A stretch of 32,660 nt of DNA from NCBI GenBank assembly GCA_017546785.1, contig JAFYRW010000006.1, positions 1 to 32,660 of the forward strand, read 5' to 3'. The position numbers were made by a program, and so were the translations under genes. This DNA is from Bacteroidaceae bacterium. GTDB lineage: Bacteria; Bacteroidota; Bacteroidia; Bacteroidales; Bacteroidaceae. The notes below the pieces were generated by a model that searched no databases, was not told the origin of the DNA, and saw nothing but the letters and a program-made list of their open reading frames with translations. Below are positions 4,266 to 15,924 of this stretch, piece after piece (within the stretch, counting starts at the first letter, position 1; every line of letters starts with the position of its first letter).

Positions 4266-4266
4266 G

Positions 4267-4340
4267 TGATCTCGACAGGATTCAAACCTGTAACCTTCTG
4301 ATCCGTAGTCAGATGCTCTATTCAGTTGAGCTACGAGACC
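4267..4340 (-). tRNA. tRNA-Arg (anticodon ACG)
   Basis: The 74-base minus-strand sequence folds as a full cloverleaf. The acceptor stem GGTCTCG pairs with CGAGATC (one G-U), followed by discriminator A. The D-arm region is TAGCTCAACTGAATAGAGCA. The anticodon stem TCTGA/TCAGA encloses the loop CTACGGA, giving anticodon ACG (Arg, CGU). The T-arm carries GGTTTGAATCC. The 3' CCA is not encoded. A near-perfect Bacteroidota promoter sits upstream and a terminator directly downstream, so it is a single-gene transcription unit. tRNA genes are common integration targets, and a decayed mobile-element gene begins 180 bases on its 5' side. Confidence 0.97.
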
Positions 4341-4518: not shown

Positions 4519-5850
4519 ATGAGTGCTATGGCCAAAAAGAAAACAGCACCTGAAACCGCGGTACAGCAAAATGCTGGTCACTCCACTGTCGTTTCAAGTG
4601 CTGATGGTACAAAGGTACTCAAAGATTTGGATTCTGCAATAGAGGAGTACAAAAATAAAACATCAAATAGACAAAAAACATTTATAGGTGATTTGTCTCG
4701 CGCACTCAAGTTGAGAAACAACGGTAATAATAGTAACTATGGTACCTTCACAACTGTTAATGGTGAAACTATGGAAATACGAGTTATTGACCATAATGTT
4801 TCAACAAAAAATATGGCCGATGCGGGTAAACTTGATGGTATTAGCATTGTTGTTACTCACAAGCCTAATAAAGGTATCAAAAATGATGGCGATGCTCACA
4901 TTGTAGAATTTTATTACAACACGCAGAAACTGCAAAAAGAATTAGGACAGTCCTATGTGGAAATCCTAAAATCGATTAAGCAGGCTCTTTATAGTGGTGA
5001 ATACAAAGATAATACTGGTCTCGCAGAGGTGCAGGAGGTAAATTCTTTAAACTCGCAAGAGGAGAGTACACTTTTCCGCGAGGTGGCAGAGAAACAGGGT
5101 GAGGATGAGCTTGCCTTGATAACGGATGCTGTGACCGGATTCGGGGAGAAGATTGGTGTTCCTGCAAGGGTTGTGAGTGATGCTCAGTCTTTGCCAGAGA
5201 ACAAACGCAACAAGAAGGGTTGGTTTGAGAATGGCGAGGTGGTTTCTAATCCATCGCTGAGACAGATGCGTACTGCTGCGGATGAGTATATGGCTGCTAT
5301 TGCCGAGGATGTGAACCTTGACAAGAATGTATGGCAAAAGATTATTGATGCTGTTCGTGCGTGGTTGAAGAAGCAGGGCGTTGATGTTGCTGAGCAGGCT
5401 AAGGGCATTCTATCTAAAGGTGCTTTGACTGACGAGGATATTACTGAATTGGTGAGACTGAGCTATGAGAACCTTAGAAATAGCAAGGCCAGCTACAGTA
5501 AGTTAACTGAAAGCGGAAATGTGAAAGGTGAGAGCGACGGTGAAACGAGGTTCAGCCGGAAAGGTGGTAAACAAAACATAGTTTATGAAACGGGTGCTGC
5601 AAGGCTTGATGCTGCTGAAGGTGTTACTACACGAATGAAGGCGCTCGAAACAGCAAAAGCTATGGACGACCGCGGTTATGACGCTTGGATGATAGAACAG
5701 CAGACCAAGTGGCAGAAGACTGAAGGCGGTGTGTGGAAGTATAATGGGGAGAAGAAAACAAAAAAGAATAATGCCGCTGCCCAAGAGTATGAAACATTGC
5801 GTCAAGCCGTAATGTTAAATAATAACTTATACGAAAAAACAAGCCAATAG
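4519..5850 (+). pseudogene. Decayed phage/ICE polyvalent protein, N-terminal part (metallopeptidase core deleted)
   Basis: The 443-codon frame has the domain order of the large 'polyvalent' proteins of Bacteroidales phages and conjugative elements. Residues about 50-155 hold a small domain with MADAGKLDGISIVV and SIKQALYSGEYKDNTGLAE. Residues about 214-324 are the two ends of a polyvalent-type metallopeptidase domain: an opening VPARVV...KGWFENGEVV, then directly the closing AADEYMA and helical tail. The middle, where HExxGH should lie, is absent. Residues about 352-435 resemble LPD23 (GAARLDAAEGVTTRMKALETA, W-K-Y). The frame then stops at a TAG, but the protein clearly continues in the next frame from 5850, so a one-base indel is inferred, most likely in the A6 run at 5833-5838. 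The fragment is related in architecture to the intact 1480-residue gene at 9406. Confidence 0.7.
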
Positions 5851-6395
5851 AGACTGCTTTTACGGCTGAAAATTTCTATATTTACAACAATTACGGCGAT
5901 GATAGTTTCTCTGTAATTAAGGCTATCCCTATTGAGGGAAATGAGGATATTATACAATACTACAATAATCTAATACAAGATGGAACTTATGGAAACAATG
6001 AAGATTTTGGCAAAGCTGCTGTTGCATTCGGGCGTGAGCAAGAACAACGCAATAGCGGTGAGCGCAATGCTAAAGGACAGCGAGGAGAAAATGCAACACC
6101 TGTTTCTTTGGATTTACGACAATCATCCGACCGAGGAGGAGATAATGCGCAAGGCAATAGCGATGAGCAAGGAGAAGTAACTCCCGAAGCGTCGGAAGGC
6201 GGCATACGCTTCCGCAAAGTGACTGACCCATTCAAGATTGCTGAACTTGAGGCGGGTGAGAAAATAAAGGTTTACAGCGCAATGCAGTTGATTGACGGTA
6301 AGCTGTATCATATAACGAGTAAATTCTCTTTTCTTTTGTATAAAGGCTCTTTGATGCTTTATAATGCTCCTCTTTTTTGTATCTTAGCAGCGTGA
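5850..6395 (+). pseudogene. Decayed polyvalent protein, C-terminal part after frameshift
   Basis: Frame zero continues the preceding protein without a start codon: ETAFTAENFYIYNNYGDDS, then a hydrophilic Gln/Glu/Arg-rich linker, then GIRFRKVTDPFKIAELEAGE and KVYSAMQLIDGKLYH. The last block is a recurring segment of Bacteroidales polyvalent proteins and should continue for hundreds of residues. Here it runs into unrelated A/T-rich sequence from roughly 6310 and stops at 6395, only 3 bases before the next gene. The C-terminus is therefore truncated as well. A TTG at 6108 could start translation of the last 95 codons, but nothing suggests this happens. Confidence 0.6.
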
Positions 6396-7951: not shown

Positions 7952-8200
7952 TTACTCGTAGCCTACCCCTTTTAGAGTCTGTTGCAACAGACTATTAAGG
8001 TCGCTGTCGTCGTGCTCTTTCTCTTTGTTAAGCTTGACGAGAAAGTCAGCTGTTGTCTTTAGTGCCTGATTTATTGTTGATGGGTCTTCGCAATTGTGTG
8101 TCAGCTTCTCGAGCCGTCTGATTAGTCTGTGGAATAGTGCCAATGTCTCGTTGTGCACATCCTCGATTGTGATTCTTTCTATTTTCTTGTTGTTGCTCAT
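7952..8200 (-). CDS. Small helical protein, unknown, divergent from the portal operon
   Basis: An 82-residue protein starts at ATG 8200, with a perfect -7 element 15 bases upstream. It looks entirely helical and charged: an N-terminal IERITIEDVHNETLALFHRL helix, an RRLEKL segment, then ALKTTADFLVKLNKEK and a Leu/Gln-rich tail. No motif identifies it. Its position, divergent from and sharing a 137-base control region with the phage-like operon, makes it a candidate partner or regulator. Its size and helix content would also fit a phage small-terminase-like or structural accessory protein. These are guesses from context only. Confidence 0.55.
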   Translation of the reverse strand: MSNNKKIERITIEDVHNETLALFHRLIRRLEKLTHNCEDPSTINQALKTTADFLVKLNKEKEHDDSDLNSLLQQTLKGVGYE

Positions 8201-8215
8201 CTTGAATTTTTATTG

Positions 8216-8223
8216 CAAAAATA
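8216..8223 (-). promoter_or_regulatory. -7 element upstream of the 82-residue gene
   Basis: The minus strand reads TATTTTTG, a full TAnnTTTG match, 15 bases upstream of ATG 8200. No TTTG box at 19 bases. On the plus strand of the same intergenic region only imperfect candidates are visible for the portal operon (TCTTTTTG near 8304 and TTCTTTTG near 8317). Confidence 0.45.
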
Positions 8224-8337
8224 GTTTCTCCTTATTCATTTAAGGTTGTGTTATTGACAATTGCTTGCAATCTGCTTTTTGTCATTTCTACCACCTCACA
8301 ACCTCTTTTTGTGGCTTCTTTTGCACAAAAAAAATAT

Positions 8338-8916
8338 ATGTATAAAACAAATCTTTTAAGTTCAATGACCGGCGCATTGGGACTGTACGCCGGAGTGAAG
8401 GGGATGTTCGATTCGGCTAATGCTGCAAACAAGCAGCGTCGTATGCTCTCCGATGCAAAAGCCGAGGAGGATGCTTGGTTCAGACGTAATTATTATGGTA
8501 ATTATCTCGACAGTAGTATGGCGCGTGCGGCGCTGCGACGCGTTGAAAAAACATTACATCGTGCGAATAATCAGAATAGGGCGCGCGCAGTTGTCGCCGG
8601 AGAGACTCCCGAATTGGCGCTTGCTCGCAACGAACAGGGATTGCGCTCTATGGAAAATGTAATAGGCAATATCACAGAGAATGATACTGCTCGCAAGGAG
8701 AGGGTAGAGTCGGCTCATCGTGCCAATGTAAATGCCATACGCAACAAGGAAATGGCAATGCTGCAGGACGACGAGCAGGTAGCCAACAACGATATACTGG
8801 GCGGCGCACAGCTTATTCGCAACGCTGTTGCCGGAATGAATTGGGGTAAGCAGAATAGTGATAAAAAGGAAGCAGAGGAGGTTGATTATGGTAAAGTACC
8901 ACGATGGGACTGGTGA
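8338..8916 (+). CDS. Predicted phage-type internal/ejection protein, first gene of the portal operon
   Basis: From ATG 8338 the product has 192 residues. It opens with a short hydrophobic Gly-rich helix (LLSSMTGALGLYAGVKGMF). A long, Arg/Ala/Glu-rich helical body follows, with the pattern AEEDAWFRRNYYGNYLDSS and RARAVVAGETPELALARNE. Small, helical, Ala/Arg-rich proteins with this layout occur next to portal genes as DNA-ejection or pilot proteins of podophage-type virions. The assignment rests on pattern and neighbours, not a domain hit. The frame is open 30 codons further upstream from a TTG at 8248, but that part reads like non-coding sequence (hydrophobic, no family pattern), and the ATG has an A-rich leader typical of Bacteroidota. 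Its end overlaps the next gene by 29 bases. Confidence 0.6.
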   Translation: MYKTNLLSSMTGALGLYAGVKGMFDSANAANKQRRMLSDAKAEEDAWFRRNYYGNYLDSSMARAALRRVEKTLHRANNQNRARAVVAGETPELALARNEQGLRSMENVIGNITENDTARKERVESAHRANVNAIRNKEMAMLQDDEQVANNDILGGAQLIRNAVAGMNWGKQNSDKKEAEEVDYGKVPRWDW

Positions 8917-9385
8917 TGGTGAATACACCCTTCCCGAATACAAGAAAGCAGCGGTAGAGCGTATGCTCGACAGGGTGCTCAAAGCGCGAGAGGAGCATAA
9001 AGCTGTAGAGCGTATGCATAATAGTGCGCTGATAGGGGATTTTGCTTCGGGGCTGCTTAATGTAATAGCCCGCCGAAAGGGTAGCCGATTCTCGCTGCCC
9101 GTGGATGCATCGGGAAAGAGCGCTCCCTATTTCCTGCAGTCGAGTGAGCGTCTGCGTGAGGCCGAACGTGATTATAAAGGTCTTTTGGCAAAGGAAATTC
9201 TTTTCTCGTCCAAAGGCAATAAGAATAAAAGCTCCAATAGCAATGTAACATATATCCCCACGGTAACGAAAAGCACATCAAAATTCAATCTGCCAAAGCC
9301 TGACAGCAGTTGGAATAAGATTCTCGAAAAGTGGAGACGCGAAAAGATGCTTACTCCTCAATGGTACACAAAAAAGATATTCTAA
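8888..9385 (+). CDS. Predicted phage-type accessory structural protein, unknown
   Basis: The 165-residue product starts at ATG 8888, inside the end of the preceding gene (29-base overlap, translational coupling likely). It is basic, with two helical blocks (AAVERMLDRVLKAREEHKA and SSERLREAERDYKGLLAKE). Between them is GDFASGLLNVIARRKGSRF, and the C-terminus is Ser/Asn/Lys-rich. I do not recognise a family. Its place between an ejection-type protein and the giant polyvalent protein suggests an internal virion or assembly role. The frame stays open upstream to 8858 but without an ATG. The giant gene's ATG is 20 bases after its stop. Confidence 0.55.
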   Translation: MVKYHDGTGDGEYTLPEYKKAAVERMLDRVLKAREEHKAVERMHNSALIGDFASGLLNVIARRKGSRFSLPVDASGKSAPYFLQSSERLREAERDYKGLLAKEILFSSKGNKNKSSNSNVTYIPTVTKSTSKFNLPKPDSSWNKILEKWRREKMLTPQWYTKKIF

Positions 9386-9405
9386 TAACATAAACAATAG
9401 TGATT

Positions 9406-12400
9406 ATGACAACAAATGAATTTTACCCCGGCAACGGGCAGCAGAAAAAGAAGAAAAGATACAATGACAATCTTACGGATTTTGATTTCAGAGGCTCGGT
9501 GAGCCGTTCATTGCAGGAGAGCGACGATTATGCGGCTATGCAGCGCAATATGGAGTCAATATCCAGCTCGCAGCAGCGTATGGAGGAGTGGGGCGACAAT
9601 GAGAATCGTAGAGAATATTACAATGCCTCTATGCGCGACTATCTTGTGCCCAAAGATACTGAGCAGCGTCGCCGACAGCAGTTCGTACTCTCTCGTAACG
9701 CGGTAGACGATGCGGTAGATAGCTATTACAACGATACATTGCAGCCACAATTCAAGGCAAACAAGGAGGAGGCCGATAAAAGAGGAAATGAGGTATATAA
9801 GAATTATGCCGGAGTGCCGGGCGCCAATCCTTACACAGCATTGGGATATATGCGTCGCGAAACTGATCCTGCAAAGGTTATAAACAAGACAATGGACAGC
9901 TTGGACAATGATGAGCTTGATGAGATTACAGCTCCCTATGCGCGCTACGCAGGATTCGATCCCGAGGCTTATCGCGAGGCTGTAGTAAAGCCTAATCTGC
10001 AGAATAGGATGGTTGATGAATATGTTAAGGAGCGTACCCCCGACAGCTCGCTCGAATATATATCGCGTGCTGCGGTGGACAATTCTCTTTTGGGCAAGAT
10101 TGAGAATCTTGGCGAGAGTGCCTATGCGCAGAGCAACAGCAAAAGGATCATCGATGATATTGCAATGCAGAATTATAACCCTAACAGGGTGGAGAATTTT
10201 GCGGCAGGAGTAGGCTCGTTGCTTGTGGATACTGCAGTGTTCCACACATTGGGCGGTGTTGCGGGAAAGGCAACGTCGGGAGTAACATCTATAGTAAAGA
10301 ATCGTCTCGCAAGCAATATTCTGGCAAAGGGTGCCGCACGAGGAGTAACAAAAGAGAGTGCCAACGCAATGGCTGAGCGTCTGATTGTGAATAATATAAA
10401 GACAAAGATTATGCAAAGTTCGGCAACGCAGGGATTGACGCTGGGTGCCTACGATGCTGCCAACAGCGTTGCCGATGACCTTTTGCACGGTAACGGCGTG
10501 TCGTTGTCGTCAGCGGCGGGAGCCTTTGCCAAAGGAATGGGTACTGGTGCTGCTCTGGGAGTGGTCGGTACACCGTTGCGCGAACAGGCGCGAATGTTGT
10601 CGGGTGCAAAGAAGATGCTCGCAAATACCGGTGTGCTTACAGCCGAGTCGGCTGTGTTTACCGCATCGACAGAGGTTGGAAAGATTGCCTCGGGAATAGA
10701 TGTTGAGCCTATTGACCTTGTGCACGATTTTGGCGAGAGTGCCGCTACGCTGCTTGCTATGCGTATGTTCCATTGGCGTCCTGATATGAGAAATAAATTA
10801 AACTCAATGGGGCGTCTGAAGGGTGAATTGCGCTTTTCTCTTGCTGAGCGCGAGGAGATTGAAAAGGCCGGAGTGAGTGTGGACTCTTTTGTCGCCGACC
10901 TTGAAAAGTCGATGCGCGTAAGCTCGCGCGGATTCTCTAAAGAGGCTCTCGAGGTTAAGAGCCAGTATATGAAGCTTATGGAGAATCCTAATCTCTCGGC
11001 GTCGGCACGTTCAAAGCTTCTCTTCATTGTCGAGAATAAGATTACGTCTACGCCGCCTGTTCCTGTCGATTATAGTGTGGAGCGTCTCAATGATGGCAAG
11101 ATGCGTGCTACACTATACGACATTACCGGTGGAAAGATTGAGAGTAAGCTCTTCGATAGAAAGATAAATCTCGAGACCTATCTTTTGACAAATACGGGAA
11201 CATTGCGTGGCAACCGATTGAAAAGCTACGAGGAGATTCTGCAGCGTAACTATAATACGCAGGATTTTTTCCGTCAGGCGAATGAGTATGCAAAGGAGAA
11301 GAATGTCGATATAAATTTAATCTCCGATGCAATGTACAAGAAGGCCAACGGAGAATCGCTCAGCAAGGAAGAGGGTAAGGTGCTCGACGATATATTGTCG
11401 CGTACAGCCTATGCGTCGGGTGAGCTTGCTCGGATGCTCTCTGATATGAGAAGCGACATTGAGGCTGAGTATGAGCTGCATCCGGGAACAATATCGCATC
11501 AGATGAACAAGAATCCTTTCCGTTGTTCGCAACAGCTTAACGCGGCGCTCGATAAATATGAGCAGCTTATGTTCGAGCAGGTAAATGCGTTGAAGGGCGG
11601 TCAGCAGCGTCACGCAAAATACAAAGGCGCGACACTCAATATGACCAATGCTGAAAAGCAGAATGCCGAGCGTGAACAATACGAGGAGGATCTTTTGAAT
11701 AGCGAGACAGGAACTCTTGGAAAGCACGTAATCCCCGATATTACCGAACGATTGGGAGAGGCGATGGACTACGACAAGGTGCGCGTACCCAAAAAATGGG
11801 ATAAGCCTTATGTGTGGAGCCTCTTTGTTACACGCAAGACTCCCGAGGAGTTGCAACGATACTCTAAAGAGGCGCAGAAATTTGCCAATTCATTCGGCGT
11901 AAAGCTTGATTTTGTCTTTGACGAGCGCGACATAAAAAATAACAACGACAAAGAGTATGCAAAGCAGATACGTTCATTCGGATGGTATAACACGGAGGAT
12001 CACTCGTTGGTCATTAACCTGCCGAATCACCATTCTCTCGATGAGGTGAAGCGTACGGTAGTTCACGAGGTCGTAGGACATTATGGCCTAGCAAAAGTCT
12101 TTGGCTCTTACTATCACGACTTTCTCGAGGAGCTATATTATAGGTCGTCGAGCGAAGTTCAGCACGAGATAAAGAGCCTCTCGAGGAACAATAAGATAGC
12201 TATGCACGATTGTGTCGATGAGTATCTTGCGAAACTTACGGAATATACTTATCCTACCGGTGAGCAGCGTACGCTGTTGCAGTATCTGCGCGATTTTATA
12301 AAGAATATGCTTGTGCGACTAAAGCTATACAAGAGTGAACGGGAAATAGGCAAGGACGATATTGTCAGGCTGCTGACGAACCATCGCGAGGCAATGGCGA

Positions 12401-13848
12401 GAAAATATTCTTCGGCATATTCGCGTTTCGACGTTTTTGGCGATTTTCAATCGTCGCACAAAATGGGTAGCTATAATGATATGAGAGGCTATTTTCTGCG
12501 CGAGAAGGCAAAATATGATCAGGATAATAATATGAACTATGCTCCTAAAGAGTTTCGCGATTCGCGCAGAGCCTATATGGACCTCTATTTCAACGGTAGC
12601 GAAAAGAATGTAGCCGACGAGGCTGCTACCGAGCCTTTGTCCAAGAAATATAGATTCATAGGAACCGAGGGCGCAATGAATCTGAAAGATGCCAATGATG
12701 GCCGTTATATGAGTGATCTGCGAAAAGCTGTCAATATGAGAGAGGAGGGCTATTCTCCCAATATGATAAAGCTTAAGACTGGCTGGGAGATTGGCGGCGA
12801 CGGCAAATGGAGAATGGAGATTCCCGAGAATTTCGAGGTAAAGGATTATATTTATAATTCTCTGCTTTACTCCAACGACAAAATGTTCTACGTTTATAAG
12901 AATCTTATCTCTAAGCCGGGACAATTGACTCCTAATGAGTACAAACTTCTGCTTGATATTGAGACAAAAGAATCGCCGTACGACAAGAATGCCAAGCTTA
13001 CGGATATTATAAAGGATAGATTCTTTTTTAACGCTTACCCCGAGTTTAAGCAGATGCCTGTTAAGTTCAAGATGATGAACGACAAGGATTGTTATTACGA
13101 CTCGCGCGAGAAGGTCCTTTATATGGATAAACGCGGATTCTCGAGCCCTGCGCTGGGACGCGATATTACCGTTGCAATGCAACGAATGATTCAGGATTAT
13201 GAGAATTTCTCGCGAGGATTCGACTATGCGGCATTGGCAACAAAGGAGGAACGACAGAATTATTCCGAGGCTCGCAGCCTGCTCGAGACAATAAACGAAC
13301 TTAAGAACGAGCAGGACGCATATGGCCGCCTCGACTATTTCAAGGATGCTTTTCGTGATAAATTCAATATGGATTACGAGGAGTTTCAGCGTAGCTATCC
13401 CTCGCTCGACGATTATGTGAAAGGCACGCGCTCGGGCGATGCCTCGCCCTCTGTGGGTAATGTAGAGCTTAGAAATGTGGTGAATCGTTACGGGCTCAGC
13501 GACCATAAACGTCGCGCTTCGCTTGCCGATCGCACTGAGGATGTTCCGCGTAAATATCAGCGTCCGTCAATTTATCTCGATGGTCCAATGGATATTATTT
13601 ACAGTAAGATACGCGAGATTGAGAGTGACGAGCGTTACCCGAGAATAAAATCGGATAGTGAGCGCGATAAACCCTCGCGAATGAGCGAGCGTGAATTTGA
13701 AATGATGATAGACGAAATAGAGAGAAAGGTCTATCGCGACTTTTACAATCGACAGCAGGAGAGAATAAAGGAGAGCTACCGTCGTAAGGGCAAGAAAAGA
13801 GGCGGTAATAATTCTGATGGAAACGATGACGGAATTTTGATGAATTAA
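9406..13848 (+). CDS. Giant polyvalent protein: Ala/Gly-rich segment, HExxGH metallopeptidase, LPD23-like domain
   Basis: The 1480-residue frame is uninterrupted. In order: a charged helical N-terminus (1-260); an Ala/Gly-rich, partly hydrophobic segment (about 262-460: GVGSLLVDTAVFHTLGGVAG, AAGAFAKGMGTGAALGVVG) of the sort seen in phage ejection proteins; a helical middle; a polyvalent-type zinc metallopeptidase domain (about 830-1000) with HEVVGH at residues 887-892 and a following DEYLAKL whose Glu is the likely third ligand; an LPD23-like domain (about 1084-1265) with FIGTEGAMNL, TGWEIGGDGKWRMEIP (Trp1127 area) and AYPEFKQMPVKF; and a very charged C-terminus ending in poly-Lys/Gly. In the LPD23-like end the usual HEiQHaiQ is degenerate (VAMQRMIQDYENFSRG). 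Polyvalent proteins are known from phages and conjugative elements and can be delivered with DNA. A GTG at 9400 is an alternative start. Codon use resembles the chromosome. Confidence 0.8.
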   Translation: MTTNEFYPGNGQQKKKKRYNDNLTDFDFRGSVSRSLQESDDYAAMQRNMESISSSQQRMEEWGDNENRREYYNASMRDYLVPKDTEQRRRQQFVLSRNAVDDAVDSYYNDTLQPQFKANKEEADKRGNEVYKNYAGVPGANPYTALGYMRRETDPAKVINKTMDSLDNDELDEITAPYARYAGFDPEAYREAVVKPNLQNRMVDEYVKERTPDSSLEYISRAAVDNSLLGKIENLGESAYAQSNSKRIIDDIAMQNYNPNRVENFAAGVGSLLVDTAVFHTLGGVAGKATSGVTSIVKNRLASNILAKGAARGVTKESANAMAERLIVNNIKTKIMQSSATQGLTLGAYDAANSVADDLLHGNGVSLSSAAGAFAKGMGTGAALGVVGTPLREQARMLSGAKKMLANTGVLTAESAVFTASTEVGKIASGIDVEPIDLVHDFGESAATLLAMRMFHWRPDMRNKLNSMGRLKGELRFSLAEREEIEKAGVSVDSFVADLEKSMRVSSRGFSKEALEVKSQYMKLMENPNLSASARSKLLFIVENKITSTPPVPVDYSVERLNDGKMRATLYDITGGKIESKLFDRKINLETYLLTNTGTLRGNRLKSYEEILQRNYNTQDFFRQANEYAKEKNVDINLISDAMYKKANGESLSKEEGKVLDDILSRTAYASGELARMLSDMRSDIEAEYELHPGTISHQMNKNPFRCSQQLNAALDKYEQLMFEQVNALKGGQQRHAKYKGATLNMTNAEKQNAEREQYEEDLLNSETGTLGKHVIPDITERLGEAMDYDKVRVPKKWDKPYVWSLFVTRKTPEELQRYSKEAQKFANSFGVKLDFVFDERDIKNNNDKEYAKQIRSFGWYNTEDHSLVINLPNHHSLDEVKRTVVHEVVGHYGLAKVFGSYYHDFLEELYYRSSSEVQHEIKSLSRNNKIAMHDCVDEYLAKLTEYTYPTGEQRTLLQYLRDFIKNMLVRLKLYKSEREIGKDDIVRLLTNHREAMARKYSSAYSRFDVFGDFQSSHKMGSYNDMRGYFLREKAKYDQDNNMNYAPKEFRDSRRAYMDLYFNGSEKNVADEAATEPLSKKYRFIGTEGAMNLKDANDGRYMSDLRKAVNMREEGYSPNMIKLKTGWEIGGDGKWRMEIPENFEVKDYIYNSLLYSNDKMFYVYKNLISKPGQLTPNEYKLLLDIETKESPYDKNAKLTDIIKDRFFFNAYPEFKQMPVKFKMMNDKDCYYDSREKVLYMDKRGFSSPALGRDITVAMQRMIQDYENFSRGFDYAALATKEERQNYSEARSLLETINELKNEQDAYGRLDYFKDAFRDKFNMDYEEFQRSYPSLDDYVKGTRSGDASPSVGNVELRNVVNRYGLSDHKRRASLADRTEDVPRKYQRPSIYLDGPMDIIYSKIREIESDERYPRIKSDSERDKPSRMSEREFEMMIDEIERKVYRDFYNRQQERIKESYRRKGKKRGGNNSDGNDDGILMN

Positions 13849-13860
13849 AAGTGCCTGATA

Positions 13861-15873
13861 ATGAATAAATTCTTGAACAGAAAAGTAAAAGCACAATCCA
13901 ACAATCACCCTTTCTCCGATAAAATATCGGAGAAAGGGATGGCTGTGGAGTTTCTTAATGAATGTGCCAATTGCTGGAATGCACTCGATGAGGCGCGACG
14001 CAAAATGCGTCGCAGCATAATGTACAGCAGCGGCGACCAATGGGGCGACTATGTATTCGACCCCGACACTCACTCCTATATAACAGAGGGCGAGCTTATT
14101 AAGAAAAACGGTAAAGTGCCGCTGAAGAACAATATGATAGCTCCTATATTGAGTAATATCGATGGACAGCTGCGACAGAATCTTATGCGTCCGGTGTGTA
14201 TAGCGCGCGACCAAGCAGAGGGTAAGATTGGTGAGATGATGTCTATTGCTGTGGAGTATGTACACGACATAAATGAAATGGAGGAATTGGATTCCGATTC
14301 TATGCGTATGCTGCTGAACGGAGGAATAGCGGCGCAGCGAATAGAATTCGGTGTCAATTCATCAAGGAACAAGCAGGATGTATGGGTGTATAGCGTGAAC
14401 CCGTCGAGGCTATTCTTCAATAGCAATGTGGAGGATGTCCGTATGTGGGATATTACCTGTGTGGGCGAGCTTTTCGACCTTACTCTCGATGATGTATTGG
14501 CTCATTTTGCTGCAACACCTCAGGAAAAGGAACTTATTGTTTCTATCTATGGCGAGGGTGGGCTGCTCTATCCGAGCAATAGAGGAATGCAGGGCGACGA
14601 GGCGTTGAATATGTCGTTTTTCACTCCCTCGCGTTCTAATCTTTGTCGTGTGATTTTAGGATGGAAACTTGAGTCGCGCGAGGCATATTATTGGAACGAT
14701 ACTATGCAGGGAACGTGGGGCTATCTTCCGTACGACAAGGCAAGCCTCAGTGTTTTTGAGGCCGAGAATGAGAAACGGCGCAACGAGGCTCTTGCCGACG
14801 GAAAAGAGGAGGAGGATATTCTTTTGATAGAGTATAGCTACGCAACCGAACGTTTCTGGTATTATCGCTATATGTCACCATATGGACACGTGCTAAAGGA
14901 GGGGCGCAGCCCCTATTGGCACGGAGAACACAATTATGTGCTTCATCTTTATCCGTTGGTGCAGGGTAAGTTAGGCAATTTTGTGGAACAGTTTATTGAC
15001 CAGCAGCGCGCGATAAACAGAACTGCCACTCTCATTGACTTTATTCGCGGAACCTCCTCGAAAGGAGTGCTTGTGGTTGATGATGATGCCTTTGAGAGTA
15101 TGACACGCGAAGAGGTTGTCGATGAGTATGTCCGCTACAATGGAGTACTTTTTGTTAAACTGAAGCCTGGACAGAGCATCGATGGAGTGGTGCGCCAGTA
15201 TAACAGCGGAGCGGCGGTAGCCGGCGATTTTGAGCTTCTCAATCTTCAGTTGAGACTGATAAATGAAATATCTGGCGTAAATTCAGCAATGCAGGGACAG
15301 GCGCCGCGTGCGGGTACTCCTGCGAGCCTTTATGCGCAGCAAACATACAATTCATCACTCAATCTCAAGGGATTGCTGGATGGCTTCCGTACATTCCGCC
15401 GTCGTCGCGACAACAAGGTGATGAAGACCATTCAGCAATATTACAACGATGTACGTTACATTGATATAGCCGGAGCACAATATGGCGAAGAGTCAAAATG
15501 GTACACCCCCGAAAAGGTTCAGAATGTAGAAATGGACCTTACAATAGCCGAGGGTTATAATACTCCCGCCTATCAGATGCTTGCCAACGATTTTCTTATG
15601 GAGCTTTTCAGGGCGCAGGCGCTCGATGTCAAGACATTGCTGGAGAATAGCTCTTTCCCCTTTGCTGATAAGATTCTCGAGGCTATAAAGCGCAACGAGC
15701 AGCAGGTGGCGCAGGGCACTCAGATGAGTGGTATCCCTCAGGAACTGTTGGAGCAGTTGCAGGGAGCAACGGCCAATGCCCAAGCGGTTGGGCAGCCGGT
15801 AGAGCAGGGCGTGCAGATGGGTGACGGAGAACCTCTTCCCGACGAGTCTGTGGAGCTTGAGAAATATCAATAG
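13861..15873 (+). CDS. Phage portal protein
   Basis: The 670-residue protein reads as a portal (head-to-tail connector), the ring through which podophage and siphophage DNA enters and leaves the capsid. Landmarks are: an N-terminal GDQWGDYVFD after an Arg-rich helix; PILSNIDGQLRQN; a wing with VYSVNPSRLFFN; FVEQFIDQQRAINRT followed by a long helix; ISGVNSAMQGQAPRAGTPAS; and the stem/crown helices NLKGLLDGFRTFRRRRDNK. Length is like P22-type portals (about 725). It starts 12 bases after the giant gene and ends at a strong terminator. A second ATG at 13939 (Met27) lies just after a perfect hairpin and could be the true start. Terminase and capsid genes, which normally adjoin a portal, are absent. 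Confidence 0.8.
   Translation: MNKFLNRKVKAQSNNHPFSDKISEKGMAVEFLNECANCWNALDEARRKMRRSIMYSSGDQWGDYVFDPDTHSYITEGELIKKNGKVPLKNNMIAPILSNIDGQLRQNLMRPVCIARDQAEGKIGEMMSIAVEYVHDINEMEELDSDSMRMLLNGGIAAQRIEFGVNSSRNKQDVWVYSVNPSRLFFNSNVEDVRMWDITCVGELFDLTLDDVLAHFAATPQEKELIVSIYGEGGLLYPSNRGMQGDEALNMSFFTPSRSNLCRVILGWKLESREAYYWNDTMQGTWGYLPYDKASLSVFEAENEKRRNEALADGKEEEDILLIEYSYATERFWYYRYMSPYGHVLKEGRSPYWHGEHNYVLHLYPLVQGKLGNFVEQFIDQQRAINRTATLIDFIRGTSSKGVLVVDDDAFESMTREEVVDEYVRYNGVLFVKLKPGQSIDGVVRQYNSGAAVAGDFELLNLQLRLINEISGVNSAMQGQAPRAGTPASLYAQQTYNSSLNLKGLLDGFRTFRRRRDNKVMKTIQQYYNDVRYIDIAGAQYGEESKWYTPEKVQNVEMDLTIAEGYNTPAYQMLANDFLMELFRAQALDVKTLLENSSFPFADKILEAIKRNEQQVAQGTQMSGIPQELLEQLQGATANAQAVGQPVEQGVQMGDGEPLPDESVELEKYQ
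13908..13938. repeat. Perfect 14-bp inverted repeat near the start of the portal gene
   Basis: CCCTTTCTCCGATA at 13908-13921 and its exact reverse complement at 13925-13938 flank a 3-base AAA loop. It covers codons 16-26 of the portal frame and is followed one base later by ATG Met27. No T-run follows, so it is not an ordinary terminator. It could control translation or mRNA stability, or be a protein-binding site. Confidence 0.9.
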
Positions 15874-15883
15874 AGACAAAATG

Positions 15884-15924
15884 AGGGAGCATCCTAAAAG
15901 AGTAAAGGATGTTCCCTGTTTTTT
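15884..15924 (+). terminator. Rho-independent terminator of the portal operon
   Basis: AGGGAGCATCCT (15884-15895) pairs with AGGATGTTCCCT (15906-15917) through 12 bp including one G-U, followed by a T-rich run. It ends the four-gene unit and separates it from ligA. Confidence 0.85.

Follow-up and report, generated by a model that had tools for sequence, protein, structure and literature searches.

The four adjacent plus-strand genes at 8338-15873 of the window, by which we mean the whole 32,660-nucleotide stretch of Bacteroidaceae DNA analysed here, are probably one part of a podovirus-derived, gene-transfer-agent-like particle system that belongs to a single genus of uncultured gut Bacteroidaceae and is inherited vertically. 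All four frames are real and intact, as the original prediction had it, and the one further mobile-type stretch recognised in the window, at about 4519-6340, consists of a broken frame, in agreement with the claim that the other mobile genes had been ruined. The operon had also been described as isolated, and this description has to be abandoned, since terminase, capsid, scaffold, tail and holin genes are conserved elsewhere in the genome and a promoter motif is common to both loci; the accompanying statement that terminase, capsid, tail and lysis genes are missing thus holds for the window and fails for the genome. Dependence on a helper is unsupported for the same reason, and the satellite interpretation was rejected because the locus is fixed in the genus and accompanied by its own terminase, capsid and tail genes.

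The genes of the block, hereafter locus A, are tightly packed (Table 1): the second frame overlaps the first by 29 bases, the giant frame starts 20 bases after the second, and the portal frame begins 12 bases past the giant. Neither of the two small proteins has a Pfam or PHROG match, and their putative ejection-type assignment rests on their position before the giant and portal genes and, for the 192-aa protein, additionally on a 29% relative at the equivalent position in a prophage on contig C6 of the same genome. Similarity to the 165-aa protein was detected in part of the 41 loci only, and no match to it was found among 50,697 phage records. The giant protein ranges from 1372 to 1639 aa across 29 aligned rows, every one of which has the HExxH motif, and reaches 1887 aa in genome G023. 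The terminator hairpin, which was missed by a pattern scan because its loop has 10 bases and the scan allows 8, was not equalled by any of 200 shuffles. On the other side of the block, the divergent 82-aa gene occurs, among 61 family genomes, in three members of the same genus and in no others; its earlier labelling as xseB-like was dropped, there being no Pfam match and the gene having been found in the genus only.

Table 1. Features of locus A and its flanks (window coordinates).
Feature	Position	Strand	Evidence
Helical protein, 82 aa, transcribed divergently to the operon; own promoter motif copy	7952..8200	-	helical model, mean pLDDT 67
Divergent M1 copy before the 82-aa gene	8214..8259	-	matrix score 9.4
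Composite operon promoter: M1 (8280-8296) plus TTTTGC box	8280..8325	+	matrix score 34.3
Putative small internal-virion/ejection-type protein, 192 aa, operon gene 1	8338..8916	+	ORF; C6 prophage relative
Putative second small ejection-type protein, 165 aa, fast evolving	8888..9385	+	ORF
Giant polyvalent protein, 1480 aa from ATG	9406..13848	+	LPD23 (PF18838) 3.9e-9; HExxH motif
P22-like portal, 670 aa	13861..15873	+	Pfam P22_portal PF16510 1.1e-37; phrog_156 6.9e-62
Terminator, 12-pair hairpin and T run, preceding ligA (15989)	15884..15924	+	fold -20.6 kcal/mol, z -5.96

The block is a property of the genus rather than of this strain. The portal was found in 41 of 44 same-genus genomes, TerL in 43 and the tail protein in 41, and each of the three in all 11 good genomes. 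The suggested test for recurrence of the four-gene set at one locus came out positive: in 37 of the 41 loci the first ejection gene is present and the block stands directly behind the genus-specific 82-aa gene, the remaining four being cut by contig ends. The complementary locus B comprises terminase, scaffold, capsid, connectors, holin and tail, and in the genome of the window it occupies C20:18399-30139, with locus A on contig C11 and a repressor gene on contig C38. The loci are separated in most readable genomes: portal and terL are 107 kb apart in G035, and an ATP-synthase operon, its genes confirmed by Pfam, lies between loci A and B in G023 and G037. Where both genes are on one contig, the span from portal to terL is 20-32 kb in eight of ten genomes, small enough to fit an ordinary phage head. 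At the compact extreme, in G009 and G013, the terminase-capsid-tail locus is only about 2-3 kb from the four-gene block, so that 20-22 kb contain locus B, repressor and locus A, no core gene having been recognised in between, and in G013 a phage integrase follows 5 bases past the portal; the open reading frame lists of these two compact loci revealed no extra long replication-type frame. This layout is prophage-like and may be either ancestral or derived.

TerL was identified by profile, the holin gives a marginal profile match, and the remaining parts of locus B were assigned via synteny with phages. The putative capsid, whose identity is deduced from synteny and weak matches (a sub-threshold Pfam match of 0.0049 and 24% identity to a phage protein whose annotation goes no further than DUF2951 or DUF5309), is present at 78-91% identity in all 21 same-genus genomes listed and at 25-39% in ten of 280 other family genomes; its fold model from a two-row alignment has a pLDDT of 28.5, and a profile of 14 sequences found no PDB match. 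The copy in the genome of the window is 72% identical to a prophage capsid there, which gives no indication of a small head. One might suppose that these structural genes were retained for some other cell function, such as protein secretion or a compartment, without any DNA-filled particle, and a giant peptidase together with a portal could in principle make a secretion device; we regard this as highly unlikely, however, because TerL, portal, scaffold-like, capsid-like and connector-type genes are kept together, most readable loci also keep the holin-like gene, and the ratio of nonsynonymous to synonymous substitution (dN/dS) of the capsid, 0.052, is at the level of core genes, with that of TerL, 0.076, near it.

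Purifying selection is evident in the particle genes. With both trees and ratios confined to genes that cover 75% or more of the reference, dN/dS lies between 0.05 and 0.16 across the particle genes, and the portal median is 0.088 over 19 pairs, which bears out the proposal that selection maintains the block and is far below the value near 1 that had been named beforehand as speaking against it. The copies of the genus form a single clade for the portal (support 99), terL (99) and the capsid (92). The trees of these three genes and of ligA, the single host gene used as a yardstick, agree better than any of 2000 permutations, with correlations to ligA of r 0.73-0.84 and 8-9 of 12-20 splits in common with it as opposed to at most three by chance; for portal and ligA the figure is nine of 20 splits, i.e., the agreement is partial. 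The codon usage of portal, terL and capsid is likewise closer to that of the host than is the codon usage of the C6 prophage.

These results bear directly on the relation to phages. A decaying remnant of a single deleted prophage was rejected, given a block that is genus-wide, intact and of such low dN/dS, and the state of the window does not reflect a recent deletion because the same block stands in 37 of 41 loci; the suspicion that close relatives might carry the full prophage here nevertheless retains some substance, inasmuch as G009 and G013 do have the terminase-capsid-tail locus nearby, in G013 together with an integrase. Relatives that are phages exist. Bacteroides phages BS-TP4, BKO1-TP3 and BF1-TP2, along with IMG/VR and prophage relatives, have, as far as the stretches reach, the giant, portal, terL, terS-like, scaffold-like, capsid-like and connector genes in common with the genus, but there the genes are joined in one phage or prophage, unlike the loci of the genus. 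Their portals are 35-59% identical, and in the phage relatives the portal is adjacent to terL or separated from it by a few genes (terL was not found within 21 kb in L193, nor within 14 kb in L185). That the genus merely hosts a highly prevalent temperate phage or its defective prophage, retained at or returned to the site and not owned by the host, could draw on these relatives, on the integrase-bearing related prophage on C6 and on the compact G009 and G013 layout, yet it is the least probable of the explanations considered: integrase-like matches were found in four of the 41 locus-A stretches and not at a constant position, other genomes have core genes separating the loci, each gene forms one clade with a host-like tree, and the viral contigs scanned contained relatives at 41-64% only, none exceeding 64% identity. 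Neither in the window nor as a rule are an integrase, replication genes and a contiguous phage genome present at the site.

What ties the separate loci together is the promoter motif M1, which is found at loci A and B and also upstream of unlinked muramidase genes. We derived the consensus by eye from loci A and B, and 45 of those promoters, that of the operon itself included, served to train the matrix, so that the scores at A and B are partly circular; in a cross-test, though, a model built on A alone scored 27 of 28 B regions above zero, and one built on B alone 36 of 37 A regions. Both the M1 and the M2 counts cover all but two of 30 locus-B regions, the two exceeding 600 bases (8.9 kb in G003, 2.1 kb in G027) being left out. 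The operon copy has the top score across the scanned 72 kb of its own genome, and the copies at its own locus B are weak (11.5 and 14.8). Of 212 control regions, 208 scored below zero, and each of the four above zero precedes a gene in a locus fetched for an M1 match. Upstream of GH108 genes 17 of 29 rows scored above zero, two of them representing one place; in many rows the alignment starts at residue 75 or beyond, which makes the upstream regions of those rows approximate. Ten genomes together have 46 M1 sites, of which, by our reading, 28 are at loci A or B, two inside terL and 16 elsewhere; among these 16, four are inside unrelated genes, apparently by chance, and three (one in L238, two in L245) lack a clear target.

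A second, putative element of control is a CI/LexA-type S24 repressor, present in 41 of 44 genus genomes and all 11 good ones, with conserved self-cleavage residues. The palindrome M2 is found at the repressor's own promoter, examined in 14 genomes, and at the terminase promoter, and AGCCANNNNTGGCT sites may be targets of the S24 protein.

The M1-linked proteins outside the two loci have an N-terminal region in common and differ in their enzyme domains (GH108, DUF6973); in 16 of 17 rows there is a same-strand neighbour gene, the start of which looks, by eye, secreted or lipoprotein-like in most, and G004 has three tandem copies. These swapped domains and partner-like neighbours, the tandem copies and a tail protein far less conserved than the capsid would suit a domesticated PBSX-like particle that packages DNA or protein and whose role is to kill kin or rivals, its lysin-type effectors and their immunity partners being driven by one common promoter. 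We nonetheless hold that explanation to be unlikely, as TerL, portal and the ejection set are under purifying selection and a pure bacteriocin would not need them; moreover, the cassettes differ from species to species, muramidase matches occur in 23 of 44 genomes (some decayed), and neither a muramidase match nor the 81-aa protein was found in the genome of the window. There is a slimmer chance of a dual use, whereby particles carry host DNA between kin and the producer is also armed with interchangeable muramidase-type effectors, of common N-terminal region and swapped enzyme domain, that have periplasmic or lipoprotein immunity partners, and gene transfer and the killing of non-kin would then be joined in one promoter-linked regulon.

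The gene-transfer-agent-like system that we favour agrees with one of the options originally offered, a domesticated delivery module, which is supported by the intact, genus-wide set and by purifying selection. We infer its induction, the order of control and the packaging and delivery of host DNA as follows. The S24 repressor would hold off its own gene, the terminase side of locus B and perhaps also a divergent 129-aa gene. Under stress it would cleave itself, and an M1-acting factor would then activate both loci, as well as the muramidase genes in many species. Heads would assemble on the portal and be filled with host DNA by TerL, holin and muramidase would lyse the producer, and the ejection proteins would deliver the DNA into a neighbouring cell. 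The regulon supplies testable targets, namely the repressor, the M1 factor and the muramidase cassettes, and hidden gene transfer agents (GTAs) might be detected more generally as leftover-looking phage genes linked through a common promoter motif and co-inheritance.

Among known systems, PBSX of Bacillus subtilis resembles the one proposed here in being prophage-derived and packaging host DNA, and differs in being long-tailed and located at one locus. It is described as acting like a tailocin, without DNA injection (PMC12946183). The definition of GTAs given in PMC9662315 names caudoviricete-derived virion-like particles, often endogenised at multiple loci and mostly inherited vertically, which contain mostly random host DNA, cannot fully package their own genome and deliver DNA to cells. 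In the present case the proteins are caudoviricete-derived, portal and TerL by profile and the others by synteny; the loci are on separate contigs here, far apart in G035 and nearly contiguous in G009 and G013; and inheritance is mostly vertical, as judged from one host gene and partial agreement. The gap in G035 speaks for incomplete self-packaging, whereas the shorter portal-terL spans of the eight genomes do not. RcGTA and other rhodogtaviriformids are similarly endogenised over several loci and mostly vertically inherited, but they are alphaproteobacterial and long-tailed, and their heads hold about 4 kb (PMC9662315).

The groups from which GTAs are chiefly on record in the literature consulted are Alphaproteobacteria, a few others and, as of 2026, Faecalibacterium; titles and abstract openings, a scope outside which bioRxiv and most subscription journals fall, announced none from Bacteroidota. 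If our reading is true, a genus-wide Bacteroidaceae system extends GTAs to a dominant gut phylum and points to a route of gene exchange there. Its closest counterpart in these comparisons is FpGTA of Faecalibacterium, portrayed in PMC12946183 as genus-wide, podovirus-type, housed in gut anaerobes, divided over two operons, which in one strain are separated by about 125 kb, with lysis genes away from the head operon and no replication genes. FpGTA differs in its Gram-positive hosts, in having the portal in the head operon, whereas here the portal has a locus of its own together with the ejection genes, and in its demonstrated particles with about 9 kb of DNA, the present system being deduced from its genes; conversely, a common promoter motif and an S24 repressor distinguish the Bacteroidaceae system from FpGTA as portrayed in that source (PMC12946183).

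The four genes that the original prediction had placed in one operon are present as described and all intact; they make up what we call locus A, next to a divergent 82-aa gene, and we read this locus as one part of a podovirus-derived, GTA-like particle system belonging to a single Bacteroidaceae genus. By profile matches the portal is P22-type and the giant protein carries an LPD23 domain; the HExxH motif of the giant protein is kept in 29/29 aligned rows, its identity between species is only about 30-46%, and a strong hairpin terminator stands 3' of the portal. The reading of these genes as a remnant was rejected: of the genus's 44 genomes 41 carry the portal, mostly as a single copy and with 69-83% identity over the matched parts. 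Completeness is 67, 75 and 82% in the three genomes lacking it, and all 11 with completeness of 90% or more and contamination of 5% or less have it (the own genome has 1,990,261 bases in 52 contigs and is 90.56% complete). In two portal rows (G042, G002) stops fall inside the match, but open frames 642 and 646 aa long are still present. When named genome records were scanned for the portal, 43 loci came back, 40 with an identity of 69% or higher; the records are titled Bacteroidaceae or Bacteroidales bacterium and are mostly MAGs from the hindgut of sheep, goats, yak, water buffalo, deer and cattle.

Locus A was compared over 41 stretches, namely that of the window and one from each of the 40 other portal-bearing genomes. 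The order 82-aa gene (minus strand), first ejection gene, giant and portal (plus strand) is the same in 37, the remaining four running off contig ends; ligA lies downstream within 23, the stretch ending or other DNA intervening elsewhere, and atp genes lie immediately upstream in 13. With reference proteins as queries, neither a terminase nor a capsid was found in the interval from the 82-aa gene to ligA, or to where the stretch ends. The 82-aa gene itself turned up in three of 61 family genomes, each belonging to the same genus.

The suspicion that the operon is a domesticated delivery module was correct; the parts absent from it lie elsewhere in the chromosome. With the terminase of contig C6 as query, TerL was found in 43/44 genus genomes, the second copy of the own genome lying on contig C20 within what we call locus B; a tail-type protein occurs in 41/44, and the locus-B holin matches PF05105 slightly below the cut-off. 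Gene order is constant over 33 locus-B stretches as far as each reaches, with the exception of G001, G003, G008, G027, G028, G035 and G042: tail and holin were not found in the stretches of G001, G028 and G035, whose tail matches are on other contigs, the holin was unrecognised in those of G008 and G042, and insertions of 8.9 and 2.1 kb precede the scaffold in G003 and G027. The tail match and terL lie on different contigs in G001, G003, G028 and G035 (L113, L115, L126, L131), so that the element may there be split into three places.

Features of the element and of neighbouring or related DNA. M1 matrix scores at loci A and B are partly circular, the matrix having been trained on 45 locus-A/B promoters.
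Feature	Position	Details
Locus A	window 8338-15873	two ejection-type genes, giant, portal
Divergent promoter region, locus A		82-aa gene / ejection gene; M1 score 34.3 before ejection gene, 9.4 before 82-aa gene
ligA	window, start 15989	downstream of portal and terminator
tRNA-Arg (acg)	window 4266-4340	
Broken polyvalent-type stretch	window, about 4519-6340	after tRNA-Arg; 443-aa frame 4519-5850, then frame breaks (by eye)
Locus B, own genome	C20:18399-30139	terL and small genes (-), then (+) scaffold-like, capsid-like, connector-type, holin, small lipoprotein-like gene (by eye), tail protein
Divergent promoter region, locus B		terS-like / scaffold; M1 score 11.5 before scaffold; further M1 match, outside this region, inside terminase-side operon (14.8)
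129-aa gene adjoining repressor, own genome		M1 score 11.6 before gene
Compact layout (loci B, repressor, A)	G013: L057, L080; G009: L049, L081	
Separate prophage, own genome	G000:C6:22000-69344 (L004-L006)	complete-looking; integrase, 4176-aa giant protein, portal, terL
Divergent prophage-type pair	G039:C128:12407-16376	portal 37%, terL 43%
M1-like promoter, viral-contig pair	L296/L297:9101	before scaffold gene
M1 cassette	L242:3057-4458; loci L252-L261	93-aa, 81-aa and glycosyltransferase genes
Enzyme domains, M1-linked proteins		L236 DUF6973; L249 GH108; L246 none recognised

Portal and terL share a contig in 10 genomes. Their joint span is 20-32 kb in eight of these and wider in G025 (43 kb) and G035 (111 kb, the gap being 107 kb). 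In G037 and G023 loci B and A are separated by the ATP-synthase operon (Pfam-confirmed in G037); in the own genome locus A is on C11, locus B on C20 and a repressor gene on C38, directly before atp genes. Two observations count against the main reading of a GTA-like system: in G009 and G013 only some 2-3 kb separates the loci, the repressor sitting in that interval, and the G013 portal is followed after 5 bases by a phage integrase (PF13102, 1.1e-21). This compact layout may be ancestral or a later form. G012, G025 and G029 likewise have integrase-like matches in the vicinity of locus A, at positions that differ. In phage BS-TP4, in the P. distasonis prophage L195 and in viral contigs L292-L297, portal and terL adjoin or have a few genes between them.

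The divergent promoter regions of both loci have in common a motif, M1 (TGNCATTWCAGCAACCT), which stands some 22 bases ahead of a TTTGC box. At up to three mismatches it is found in 25/37 forward and 25/37 reverse cases at locus A, 20/28 and 6/28 at locus B, 0/14 and 1/14 at repressor promoters and 5/1580 shuffles; with one mismatch allowed, ten whole genomes yielded 46 sites versus 2 for the reversed pattern. A palindrome, M2 (AGCCANNNNTGGCT), occurs with at most one mismatch at locus B in 16/28, before the S24 repressor gene in 12/14, at locus A in 1/37 and in 6/1580 shuffles. Over the 72 kb of the own genome scanned, M1 matrix matches of at least 8 fall in five places only, and exact M2 only at the terminase and repressor promoters. 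Among 12 phage and prophage sequences scanned, only one pair of viral-contig relatives (L296, L297) has an M1 matrix match (score 15.5, before the scaffold), and the motif may therefore derive from a phage ancestor; exact M2 was found in L293 only among seven checked. The S24 protein (PF00717; 3.6e-13 in G037, 7.6e-9 in the own genome) is present in 41/44 genus genomes; an Ala-Gly pair and a serine are invariant in 19 distinct aligned sequences and a lysine is kept in 18/18 reaching that position, which we take, after CI and LexA, to be the predicted cleavage and catalytic residues.

M1 sites unlinked to the two loci pointed to genes that had not been looked for beforehand, for example a GH108 muramidase in G007 (PF05838, 9.9e-18; phrog_315 endolysin, 5.4e-37), matched in 23/44 genus genomes and without a match in the own genome; the M1 promoter score is positive in 17/29 muramidase rows. 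Copies that are partial or contain stops (G015:C39, G025:C3, G018:C28, G010:C2) mean that the gene may be decaying in some species. The N-terminal region is common to the M1-linked proteins L236, L246, L249, L274, L277 and L279 and the enzyme domain varies; a same-strand gene adjoins in 16/17 rows examined. Across the cassettes L236, L239, L244, L246, L249, L274, L277 and L279-L281 the N-terminal regions are related in several, and the enzyme gene is followed by one whose start is signal- or lipoprotein-like (three tandem copies in G004); by analogy, these cassettes resemble polymorphic effector-immunity pairs. A second cassette under M1, of 93-aa, 81-aa and family-2 glycosyltransferase genes, was seen in three genomes; its 81-aa gene occurs in 10/44, with M1 (at most three mismatches) upstream in 9/10, and neither small gene has a Pfam or PHROG match.

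In the trees of portal (39 rows, SH-aLRT 99), TerL (33 rows, 99) and capsid (29 rows, 92) the copies from the genus group in a single clade that excludes phages and prophages, the exact places of the outside rows being unsure because several are long branches. Within the element, distances are correlated for portal with capsid (r 0.86; 19/25 splits common), portal with TerL (0.66; 19/28) and capsid with TerL (0.72; 17/26), and they correlate with host ligA for portal (0.73; 9/20), capsid (0.82; 8/12) and TerL (0.84; 9/14); for each pair 0/2000 permutations reached the observed r, and chance-common splits were at most 4. Median dN/dS (Nei-Gojobori, pairs with dS below 1.5 only) is 0.047 for ligA (7 pairs), 0.050 for atpA (3) and 0.052 for dapA (34) among host genes, and 0.052 for capsid (50), 0.076 for TerL (25), 0.088 for portal (19), 0.093 for scaffold (5), 0.103 for tail (2), 0.129 for holin (16), 0.148 for the first ejection gene (12), 0.158 for giant (3) and 0.161 for connector B219 (7). 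In a survey of 301 family genomes the capsid turned up in 21/21 listed genomes of the genus, the query's among them, at 78-91% identity, and in 10/280 others at 25-39%. Pattern scans of viral contigs returned relatives of the portal (two, 41 and 43%), TerL (three, 57-61%) and capsid (three, 63-64%); a single-sequence capsid query found none there. Codon-usage distances to host genes for portal, TerL and capsid are 0.100, 0.116 and 0.074 in the element and 0.176, 0.191 and 0.119 in the C6 prophage.

That separate, integrase-bearing prophage holds the own genome's second portal (58% identity to that of the window), and its capsid shares 72% identity with that of the genus element. G039 carries a further divergent prophage-type pair as well as the conserved element. 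Within the window, the broken polyvalent-type stretch has a weak LPD23 match (0.0038), only local likeness to the giant protein (30% over 90 aa) and no phage match; it resembles the decayed remains of a mobile element at a tRNA.

Three of the six features in the published GTA definition (PMC9662315) are found on sequence grounds and the other three need experiments, and we therefore call the element GTA-like and not a proven GTA. Its main rival is a reading as a PBSX-like killing particle. The GTA-like element has its nearest described counterpart in FpGTA (PMC12946183).
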